A DNA stretch of 12,454 nucleotides. Source: Chloroflexota bacterium (lineage in GTDB: Bacteria; Chloroflexota; Dehalococcoidia; Lucifugimonadales; UBA826). Shown one piece after another: positions 8,719 through 11,814 of the stretch; positions within the stretch are counted from its first letter, which is position 1, and every line of letters begins with the position of its first letter. The notes beneath the pieces were generated by a model. That model searched no databases. It worked only from the letters and a program-made list of their open reading frames with translations, and was not told the origin of the DNA. The position numbers and the translations under genes were made by a program. The stretch is taken from assembly GCA_002718095.1 (NCBI GenBank), contig PBDP01000009.1, forward strand, positions 24,138 to 36,591, read 5' to 3'.

Positions 8719-10437
8719 TTATTCAAAATTGGATTTAATATATTCTGTCATTTCAGAACCCTCTAGAGGAATTGTTTGTCCGTGCAGTCGTATATAAAAA
8801 ATTTTAGAGGGCTTGTCATGCTTAGTAACAAATATAGGTGTAGATGATTTACGACATTTAATTTTTACATACTTACGAATCTTTGTGCTTTTGCTAACAG
8901 GATCATCATAGTCACAATACTGTATTGAAATGTATCCGTTTACCAAAGAATACTTTTCAAAACGTGAGTTAAAAATATGTATCATCTTATTGTTGAAATC
9001 ATCTATATTGTTATTGTGGAATTTTAGTAATTCTTCATTAATTCCAATAAGTCTTGGGTCGTCACTTATACCTATGTATAGACATCCTCCTTCCGTGTTT
9101 AGGAACCCAGCGATAGTTTTTATTACAGCATGTTCCAGTTTAGAGTCTTTATTTTTTGTGTAGGTATTTAGATGAAAGGTTTCTTTGAATTCTACAGTTT
9201 TGGATTCACCATTTTTTATGACTGAAGCAAGATCAGTTTTTTGACTAATTTTAGATCGGATTTCAGGTACTTTGGAGGTTCGTATATTGGGCTTTAATTG
9301 CTTTTGGATATTTGGTGACTGGATAGATCTATCTGAGGTTGCTTGTCTATTTTTCGTTATTCCTGGCCTTCCCATTTTGCTCCATTCGGATAAACTCTTG
9401 CCGTATTGTGTGATCATTTCGTCAAGGTCTTTTTGCATTGAAGAATATGTAACAGGTTTATCGACCATGAAGTTTTCAGGTGTCTTTTCTTCTACAAAAT
9501 ATTTAACTCTATTTCCTTCTATTGACGGTTTGTAATATTTAAAAACTAAAGAATCTTTAAATTTTTTTGTGTTTATTATTTCGGATATCTTTTTATTTGA
9601 GGTTAAGATTTCATGGTTCCAAGGATGTTCAAATTTATTTGTTTCACTAATTCCGTAAGCAAGAATTAACAAATTTTCTTTCTTATAGTAAAGGTAATTA
9701 ATGAAAAATCCATTGCTAGTAGTCATTTCTAGTCCTAAGAAAGATATCCATGGAACGTGAGCTAGGTTGCCTTGGCCAAAAGAAACTTTGATATCATAGG
9801 GACCAAATTTTGATGGATATAAGTTTGACGTTTTTCGGTTTTCTGTACGTGATTGTTTTATGAAATCATTTACAGAAAGTATGAAAAAGAACTCCTTAGA
9901 AAGATCAAACCATTTTTTTGCTTGAACTTCATCTTTCCCTAAGTCGTATAGTAAAGATAGGTTGTTTTGAGAATCTTCATGTCCCTGTTCGGCTGCGTGG
10001 TGAAACCATTTTACTGCTTCTATTATATCCTGAGTAACACCCTTGCCATTGAAGTAATTTAACGCAACGGCAAATTGTGCATCTACGAGCCCTTTCTCTG
10101 CAGAACGTTGAGCCCATTTTGCTGCTTCTTCATCATCTTGCTTAAACCAATAACCTTCTTTATACATGTCTGAAAGGTTATATTCAGCAGTTAGATTTCC
10201 TCGTTCTGCAGCAATTTGATTCCATTTTGCTGCTTTTTCATAATCTTTTTTTATAAGATACAAGTGACCAAGATTTGCTTGAGCATTTAGATTTCCTCGT
10301 TCTGCAGCAATTTGAAGCCATTTTGCTGCTTTTTCATAATCTTTTCTTATAAGATACTCGTAACCAAGATTTGCTTGAGCAGTTAGATCTCCTCGTTCTG
10401 CATCTTTACAAAGCTTTTCGAAATTTTGATTATCCAT
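8719..10437 (-). CDS. Sel1-repeat / McrB-N-like / Schlafen AlbA_2 fusion protein, candidate defence protein
   Basis: This 572-residue protein has three parts. Residues 8-180 hold about five Sel1-like (TPR-class) repeats with AERGNLxAQANLG and DYEKAAKW motifs, a protein-interaction scaffold. Residues 205-345 resemble the McrB N-terminal domain: VSFGQGN (218-224), VPWISFL (228-234), INYLYY (246-251) and LAYGISETN (259-267); in McrB this domain recognises modified cytosine. After a polar linker (350-400), residues 401-572 match the AlbA_2 domain of Schlafen-like proteins: ESKTVEFKET (411-420), FLNTEGGCLYIGISDD (445-460) and a terminal barrel. No McrB GTPase or obvious nuclease motif is present. 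There is no signal peptide. The start lacks a Shine-Dalgarno, so 10437 is the least certain part. It lies 68 bp after the 85-residue gene in a run with an HNH endonuclease. AlbA_2 is the firmest call; the modified-DNA role is inferred. Confidence 0.82.
   Translation of the reverse strand: MDNQNFEKLCKDAERGDLTAQANLGYEYLIRKDYEKAAKWLQIAAERGNLNAQANLGHLYLIKKDYEKAAKWNQIAAERGNLTAEYNLSDMYKEGYWFKQDDEEAAKWAQRSAEKGLVDAQFAVALNYFNGKGVTQDIIEAVKWFHHAAEQGHEDSQNNLSLLYDLGKDEVQAKKWFDLSKEFFFILSVNDFIKQSRTENRKTSNLYPSKFGPYDIKVSFGQGNLAHVPWISFLGLEMTTSNGFFINYLYYKKENLLILAYGISETNKFEHPWNHEILTSNKKISEIINTKKFKDSLVFKYYKPSIEGNRVKYFVEEKTPENFMVDKPVTYSSMQKDLDEMITQYGKSLSEWSKMGRPGITKNRQATSDRSIQSPNIQKQLKPNIRTSKVPEIRSKISQKTDLASVIKNGESKTVEFKETFHLNTYTKNKDSKLEHAVIKTIAGFLNTEGGCLYIGISDDPRLIGINEELLKFHNNNIDDFNNKMIHIFNSRFEKYSLVNGYISIQYCDYDDPVSKSTKIRKYVKIKCRKSSTPIFVTKHDKPSKIFYIRLHGQTIPLEGSEMTEYIKSNFE
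10191..10382 (-). repeat. Two tandem 96-bp copies encoding Sel1 repeats
   Basis: Units 10191-10286 and 10287-10382 differ at about 7 of 96 positions by my count. Each encodes one 32-residue Sel1-like repeat, shorter than the usual 36-44. The similarity carries on for about 20 nt into a third unit starting at 10383, then fades; the unit before 10191 is only distantly similar. The DNA-level identity points to recent duplication or gene conversion inside the coding frame. Confidence 0.85.
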
Positions 10438-10505: not shown

Positions 10506-10763
10506 TTAACTCATTATTTCTAAAGAATATATTTTGTCGACACAATTAAATTTTGTATCCCATGCTTGCATTTCTTCAGACATCATTATTTCCTGAAATT
10601 TTTCCATATCAGTTATATTAATCATCAAAGCAATTTTTCCTTCTCGTATAACGCCTATATCGTAATCAGTGAAAAAACCTGCGCCCTTTTCTTTTGTAGT
10701 ATTAAACATTTCCATATAATCGTCAGTGGTACCGTCAAAAGTTGAGACAACACATATATTCAT
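10506..10763 (-). CDS. Small protein of unknown function (85 aa), possible ferredoxin-like fold
   Basis: I do not recognise this protein. Its pattern alternates predicted strand and helix: a strand at 2-9 (NICVVSTF), a helix at about 12-26, strands at about 33-50 (YDIGVIREGKIALMINIT), a helix at about 52-70 and a last strand at 74-83. That order resembles small dimeric alpha/beta-barrel (ferredoxin-like) proteins, so this is a fold guess and not a function. There is no membrane segment, cysteine cluster or signal peptide. It is almost certainly a real gene because a strong AAGGAG (plus-strand 10770-10775) sits 6 nt before the ATG. It follows the HNH endonuclease and the possible 34-codon ORF closely and is 68 bp ahead of the Sel1/AlbA_2 gene on the same strand, so it may be co-transcribed with both. 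It could be an accessory to them or an unrelated passenger. Confidence 0.75.
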   Translation of the reverse strand: MNICVVSTFDGTTDDYMEMFNTTKEKGAGFFTDYDIGVIREGKIALMINITDMEKFQEIMMSEEMQAWDTKFNCVDKIYSLEIMS

Positions 10764-10878: not shown

Positions 10879-11814
10879 TTAACTAACTCTATTTTTGTGC
10901 TCAATCAAAAAACTTTTTGAGGGTCTATTTTCTTTTATTTTGGGTAAGTTAATTTTAACACCGTCATATTTTGAAATTTCATCATATAAAGCAGGGTCAT
11001 TTTTTGCCTTGTCCGAAACTCTTACTTTGTAATCACTATCTATTGTTATAAATCCCTTTTCAAAGCAAGCATCTGCTAAAGCTGATAAACAAATTCCATT
11101 TTGCGGGTTTAGCCTTTCTTTTTGGTTATCTGCCCACCTAACAATATGTGCTGCCCTTAACAAAGAAAGAGTTTTGATTCCAGTGACTGCACATTGATAA
11201 TCGTAATTTGGCAGGACTATATCTTCCCGAAATATTATTTGATATTTTCCTCTTGTTTTTACTGTTGCCTCTGTATTGCTTACCTCGTGATTTCTTTGAA
11301 GAACCTTTTTGTGGACAGTTAACCTTAAACTATTTGTTTCAATGTCAACCTTTTGTTTATTATTAAGTCCTTTATCGAGCAGGAAAGAGAAAACCTCTAA
11401 ATCTATTTTGTTCATCCCATAATTGTTAAAAAAACCGGTCCATGAATCATCCTTCTCTTTTCTGTGATCATTTAAGTCTGTTGGATGAATCTGGTCTTGA
11501 TAAATAAAGTTGTCAAATAATACCGGACTAGAAATTGTTGCTTGAAGATCACCTGATTTTTTAAAGTTTATTGCATCAGGTGGGACTTCAGAAATATTCT
11601 CAATTTTTCCAGCACCGAAAAAATAAAATTTATCGTTTTCTGAAACCTTTTGTGGTTTTCTGTAAATGAAAAGATCTCCTGGTTCAACCAAGTCATATCT
11701 ATGCTTGTTCCAAGAATACATTTCGAAATCGATGTCTCTGTGTTCGATTCTTCCTGTATCTAGAATAAAAAGTTTTGTATTTGGATTTTGTAATTCTAAG
11801 TTAAATAATGTCAT
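10879..11814 (-). CDS. HNH endonuclease with PUA/EVE-like N-terminal domain, candidate modification-dependent restriction enzyme
   Basis: The C-terminal part (about 188-270) is an HNH_2-type restriction nuclease domain: FREDIVLPNYDYQCAVTG (195-212), H223 in RAAHIVRW as the first catalytic histidine, RLNPQNGICLSAL (234-246) with N239, and FITIDSDYKV (255-264). The N-terminal 130 residues contain EPGDLFIYRKP (44-54) and FYFFGAGKIENISEV (63-77), a pattern like PUA/EVE-type domains that read modified bases; such fusions are known as type IV modification-dependent enzymes. That N-terminal assignment is by eye and uncertain. The position where related enzymes often have the last histidine (LHD) is A247, which may lower or alter activity. 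The ATG at 11814 has only a weak GAG 11 nt upstream. It begins 18 bp after the nucleosidase stop and shares direction with the McrB-N/AlbA_2 gene. No partner methyltransferase is visible. Confidence 0.82.
   Translation of the reverse strand: MTLFNLELQNPNTKLFILDTGRIEHRDIDFEMYSWNKHRYDLVEPGDLFIYRKPQKVSENDKFYFFGAGKIENISEVPPDAINFKKSGDLQATISSPVLFDNFIYQDQIHPTDLNDHRKEKDDSWTGFFNNYGMNKIDLEVFSFLLDKGLNNKQKVDIETNSLRLTVHKKVLQRNHEVSNTEATVKTRGKYQIIFREDIVLPNYDYQCAVTGIKTLSLLRAAHIVRWADNQKERLNPQNGICLSALADACFEKGFITIDSDYKVRVSDKAKNDPALYDEISKYDGVKINLPKIKENRPSKSFLIEHKNRVS

Follow-up and report, generated by a model that had tools for sequence, protein, structure and literature searches.

The window (the whole stretch of 12,454 nucleotides that was analysed) encodes, on the minus strand at positions 8719–10437, a 572-aa protein in which Sel1-like repeats, a McrB N-terminal (McrB-N) domain and a Schlafen AlbA_2 domain are joined in one chain. 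The chances appear about even that this fusion is a single-chain, NTP-independent sensor of modified DNA that is coupled to a Schlafen RNase. In such a mechanism, a modified cytosine in incoming DNA would be flipped out and bound by McrB-N, and engagement of the DNA, probably together with Sel1-mediated oligomerisation or gathering of partners, would activate the C-terminal AlbA_2 domain. The latter would cut RNA, most likely tRNA, and translation would stop in the infected cell (abortive infection), with the phage DNA left uncut. We infer the binding of modified bases, the RNase activity and its substrate, the coupling between them and the antiviral role. The narrower version, in which phage DNA carrying 5mC or 5hmC is recognised and translation is shut off by the Schlafen tRNase in cis, with neither an NTPase nor DNA cutting, is more tentative and has somewhat less than an even chance of being correct.

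Pointing to the sensor-and-RNase arrangement are the McrB-N homology, the retained counterparts of McrB W49 and L68, the AlbA_2 catalytic triad, the swapping of partners among relatives, the lack of McrC, the HNH neighbour and the variable region in which the gene lies. Against it stand the change of McrB Y41 to Q, a middle domain whose fold rests on sequence, the annotation of AlbA_2 domains also as plain binders of DNA or RNA, the tRNA binding without cleavage reported for SLFN5, a single lobe in place of the Schlafen pseudodimer, the restriction of the architecture to a single genome and the mostly metabolic character of the nearest genes. Textbooks know McrB-N as a reader of methylated DNA within a DNA-cutting machine; the fusion, in a genome without McrC, offers a compact, testable case in which modified DNA, once sensed, would provoke an attack on RNA. 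If true, type IV immunity in bacteria would thereby be connected with the antiviral Schlafen/SAMD9 RNases of animals.

Domain organization of the fusion protein

The fusion is encoded by a single unbroken frame of 572 codons, and the remaining two frames of the same strand contain 42 and 62 stops. All three Pfam domain matches exceed their gathering scores. The three-part composition proposed in the preliminary description, Sel1 repeats followed by an McrB-N-like domain and AlbA_2, was borne out for all three by Pfam, with independent support from phmmer and NCBIfam for the middle domain and from profile search and Foldseek for the C-terminal one. The motifs FGQGN (residues 220–224) and VPWIS (residues 228–232) lie in the middle domain, and GESKTVEFK (residues 410–418) and FLNTEGG (residues 445–451) lie in the C-terminal one. 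There was no sign of an assembly chimera as the origin of the fusion in the one draft assembly, because the GC content of all its segments is low (0.30–0.38; GC3 0.21–0.31) and comparable to that of the neighbouring genes, and the window contains no ambiguous base. The contig sequence that flanks the window does have ambiguous bases, which are translated as X.

The Sel1-like repeats occupy residues 8–180 (positions 9898–10416, minus strand; Pfam Sel1 E = 3.8e-29, four repeats). In the AlphaFold2 (AF2) model, residues 1–168 form a Sel1 solenoid with pLDDT values mostly of 75–94 up to residue 160, and its comparison with solved Sel1 repeat proteins gave VIA Z scores of 18–22, with a maximum of 21.6. 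This part would serve as a platform for partner binding or oligomerisation.

The middle domain (residues about 188–345; positions 9403–9876, minus strand) corresponds to the methylcytosine-recognition domain known as MrcB_N, DUF3578 or ADAM. Pfam places MrcB_N at residues 205–345 (E = 1e-9), the NCBIfam McrB model matches residues 189–289 (E = 1.8e-17), and the identity to the N-terminus of E. coli McrB is 31% overall and 39% over the core. A match to a known McrB-N structure, on which the preliminary description had made its reading of this segment depend, was found by sequence with the solved E. coli domain 3SSC (phmmer against the PDB, E = 2.5e-17). Of the segment that it had delimited as residues 205–345, the domain identity stands and the boundary does not, as the similarity to McrB-N begins near residue 188. 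The AF2 model, built from a five-row alignment, reached a pLDDT under 50 for McrB-N, with Sel1 modelled well and AlbA_2 moderately. Since the modelling failed on the middle domain, its McrB-N fold rests on sequence. The linker that follows (residues about 350–401; positions 9235–9390, minus strand) has no Pfam match and is probably flexible, as its low AF2 confidence would suggest, a value that is likewise low for the adjoining McrB-N domain in the same model.

The AlbA_2 domain and its predicted active site

The C-terminal AlbA_2 domain (residues about 405–572; positions 8722–9225, minus strand), also named in the preliminary description, is confirmed by Pfam (SLFN_AlbA_2, residues 411–558, E = 1.1e-13) and by a profile of 12 AlbA_2 domains, which matched SLFN11, SLFN14, SLFN12 and SLFN13 in the PDB at about 4e-10 to 5e-9. 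In the Foldseek search with the modelled domain, ranks 1–29 were taken exclusively by Schlafen or SAMD9 structures. The model superimposes on the catalytic C-lobe of SLFN5/11/12/13/14 (VIA; Z about 6–7 over 106–125 residues), that is about residues 184–350 of those proteins, where the SLFN active site is located, and it also matches the SAMD9 tRNase 9O0D. When the domain was folded alone, the pLDDT was lower (mean 56.5), yet the Schlafen matches were clean. A tree of AlbA_2 domains was too poorly supported for firm placement of the copy in the window.

The E/E/D triad is intact in the alignment. Residues E411 and E416 (positions 9190–9207, minus strand), the predicted equivalents of the catalytic glutamates E205 and E210 of SLFN13, are invariant in the 12 aligned AlbA_2 domains, and D459 (positions 9061–9063, minus strand), the predicted third carboxylate corresponding to SLFN13 D248, is an aspartate in 10 and an asparagine in 2 of them. 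In SLFN13, mutation at any of the three positions diminishes tRNA cleavage (PMC5862951). The AlbA domain of SAMD9 is a tRNase (PMC12331169), and the antiviral function of SAMD9L needs the same acidic site (PMC11221667). SLFN5, in contrast, reportedly binds tRNA but leaves it intact (PMC11221667). We predict that the AlbA_2 domain of the fusion acts as an RNase of the Schlafen type that requires Mg2+. Eukaryotic Schlafens form a two-lobe pseudodimer; with its single lobe, the fusion would have to pair with itself as a homodimer.

Genomic neighborhood

The fusion gene has upstream neighbours on its own strand, namely an 85-aa ORF (positions 10506–10763, minus strand; no match in Pfam, NCBIfam or PADLOC), a gene for an endonuclease (positions 10879–11814, minus strand; Pfam HNH_2) and a nucleosidase gene. 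The HNH protein is probably a modification-dependent restriction nuclease, because it matches VcaM4I (6YEX; phmmer 3.1e-9, in the HNH part only), the NCBIfam family of phosphorothioated-DNA restriction endonucleases (4e-16, under the family cut-off) and the PADLOC HNH model (7e-35). Its N-terminal part of about 180 residues is possibly a modified-base reader of the PUA/EVE type.

This neighbour gives rise to an alternative in which AlbA_2 merely binds nucleic acid or oligomerises, and the fusion is a specificity subunit that recruits the HNH nuclease through Sel1. We regard such an arrangement as unlikely. It would be in keeping with the relatedness of the HNH protein to modification-dependent endonucleases, the position of its gene 440 bp upstream on the same strand, the general role of Sel1 repeats as protein-binding scaffolds and the annotation of AlbA_2 domains elsewhere as plain DNA or RNA binders, including DNA-binding ones in pAgo proteins; AlbA_2 tails also occur on proteins that already bear restriction modules. 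However, the conserved catalytic triad argues for more than a binding role, and HNH enzymes of this kind bring their own sensor. The separation of about 0.4 kb, with the small ORF inside it, speaks against tight translational coupling. Moreover, HNH relatives are present in 36 of 294 genomes of the class and vastly outnumber the fusion, so these proteins are independent of it.

The locus lies in a lineage-specific variable chromosomal region, as seen from the interval between GlmS and the conserved hydrolase–PNPase–dapB–asd–dapA block, which, by gene coordinates, spans 2 to 7 kb with other genes in six genomes of the family and about 14 kb, containing the genes of the window, in the genome studied here. 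Most of the cargo is metabolic, and the region is therefore not a classical defence island. Judged by its gene content, the host is probably a SAR202-like member of the Chloroflexota, seemingly marine.

Relatives and modularity of the predicted sensor and effector domains

The preliminary description had proposed a search for the same domain order in other genomes. Across about 1,030 related genomes, the architecture was found once, in the one draft genome, and none of the seven further McrB-N proteins detected in them carried AlbA_2. Nor did the samples from family, order, class and phylum, the phages or the plasmids contain a second protein that combines McrB-N with AlbA_2. McrB-N itself is rare, occurring in 6 of the 393 genomes sampled from the class and in 2 of the 400 from the phylum, with the genome of the window counted both times. 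Viral contigs contained no relatives when queried with the C-terminal 385 aa, the McrB-N alignment, E. coli McrB-N or the HNH protein, and the AlbA_2 alignment retrieved from them solely N-terminal AlbA_2 proteins of the RecG-like regulator kind. Phage records yielded matches to Sel1 alone and none to the C-terminal 385 aa, no plasmid record was matched by both McrB-N and AlbA_2, and the single match in the genome-contig collection was an AlbA_2 protein from Lokiarchaeota that bears the domain N-terminally.

The partners of McrB-N in relatives are diverse. They comprise an AAA GTPase (L033 and L039, assigned from reading the sequences), a NO VEIN C-terminal domain (L034), an extension with no Pfam match (L035) and NucS_C/YhcG_C (L037). 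In a further protein (L036), McrB-N is joined to a GIY-YIG-like MUG113/T5orf172 domain. The two closest relatives of the sensor in the order, with 55% and 49% identity, are both McrB-N–NucS_C proteins (L006/L037 and L078, respectively) and are candidates for two-domain, NTP-independent methyl-dependent nucleases. These proteins, from genomes G406 (L006/L037) and G785 (L078), are about 310–320 aa long, with McrB-N followed by a C-terminal PD-(D/E)XK nuclease of the NucS/YhcG type.

AlbA_2 of the same type is found as a C-terminal tail on GmrSD/DUF262(-HNH), HsdR (type I R), Eco57I methylase and DUF2779 proteins (L007–L020 and L079–L083), on S1-repeat proteins and, in plasmids, on DUF262 and N-6 methylase proteins. 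Such tails are a common add-on of restriction proteins in the class and may act as a backup effector. For prokaryotic Schlafen RNases, among them ones linked to BREX, a backup or abortive role has been described (PMC12839542). Both modules of the fusion are thus recombined on restriction proteins inside one bacterial class, and domain swapping on restriction-type proteins would be the simplest origin for it. The predicted sensor-plus-effector logic is strengthened because McrB-N pairs with other, mostly nuclease-type partners in relatives, the AlbA_2 triad is preserved, and the gene adjoins one for another putative nuclease of the modification-dependent kind.

The pairing of the closest McrB-N relatives with NucS-like PD-(D/E)XK nucleases would also suit a reading of the fusion as a compact, ATPase-free type IV restriction enzyme in which AlbA_2 cuts DNA, as would the binding of dsDNA by SAMD9 AlbA (PMC11221667). 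We consider this distinctly improbable, since RNA is the target of SLFN13 and SAMD9, the characterised proteins that have this triad.

The putative modified-base pocket

On the similarity of the sequences, the middle segment is a true homologue of the methylcytosine-binding domain of E. coli McrB, and by homology it would bind modified cytosine (5mC, 5hmC or 4mC) by base flipping. Alignment with the McrB N-terminus (residues 1–161) of the E. coli MG1655 gene maps the pocket as Y41→Q222, W49→W230, Y64→F245 and L68→L249, so that two positions are identical, one is conservatively replaced (Y64→F) and one is changed. Functions were assigned to these positions from the study of E. coli McrB (PMC3874153), in which Y64 contacts the methyl group; in the fusion, its equivalent F245 lies at positions 9703–9705, L249 at positions 9691–9693 and Q222, at the position of Y41, at positions 9772–9774 (all minus strand). 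The Y41Q substitution in E. coli McrB compromises binding (PMC3874153), and residue 41 is described as non-conserved. In VcaM4I, an unrelated EVE reader, a glutamine touches the estranged base and serves as a wedge (PMC7897488). Because that glutamine fills the same role as McrB residue 41, a working, perhaps altered, pocket is plausible in the fusion.

The host genome contains no C5-cytosine methyltransferase (PF00145), in a search to which 10 of 14 control genomes respond; a methylcytosine sensor therefore need not attack self. That McrB-N has drifted (Q222, F245) to read another mark or plain DNA, with the fusion acting as a defence or stress regulator under an unrelated trigger, is very unlikely, for it would agree with the glutamine at position 41 and the weakened binding of Y41Q McrB, but not with the retained W49 and L68, the overall and core identity to the E. 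coli domain or the lack of a C5 methyltransferase in the host.

Comparison with known systems

The fusion, read as a modification sensor with an RNase effector, consists of known modules in a new order, and the combination, a single instance, is unreported as far as our searches reach. No paper with a Sel1–McrB-N–AlbA_2 fusion was found in the open literature, the coverage of which is incomplete, and the main text of the ADAM/DUF3578 census (PMC11090510) mentions neither Schlafen nor Sel1. In PADLOC-DB (2023), the fusion had no full-length match to a defence model and just a weak match to PtuA in the Sel1 region (2.4e-4, 40 residues).

With the type IV system McrBC of E. coli, the fusion shares a domain homologous to the base-flipping recognition domain of McrB. 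However, it departs from McrBC in two defining features, as its ORF contains no AAA GTPase and McrC (PF10117) is absent from the host genome, which is about 95% complete; AlbA_2 and Sel1 are present instead. The MrcB_N–NucS_C proteins of the same order have the closest sensor, but their effector is a nuclease and their chain lacks Sel1. The GmrSD/DUF262, HsdR and Eco57I-type proteins end in the same AlbA_2 subtype, and they carry their own restriction modules where the fusion has Sel1 and McrB-N. The antiviral proteins SLFN11/13/14 and SAMD9/SAMD9L have the AlbA/SLFN fold with the E/E/D site in common with the fusion, which, in contrast, is bacterial, has a single lobe and is joined to a predicted sensor of DNA modification. 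Enzymes of the VcaM4I type (EVE–HNH) also combine a modification sensor and an effector in a single chain with no NTPase, but both the sensor and the effector belong to families other than those in the fusion, the effector of which is expected to act on RNA.
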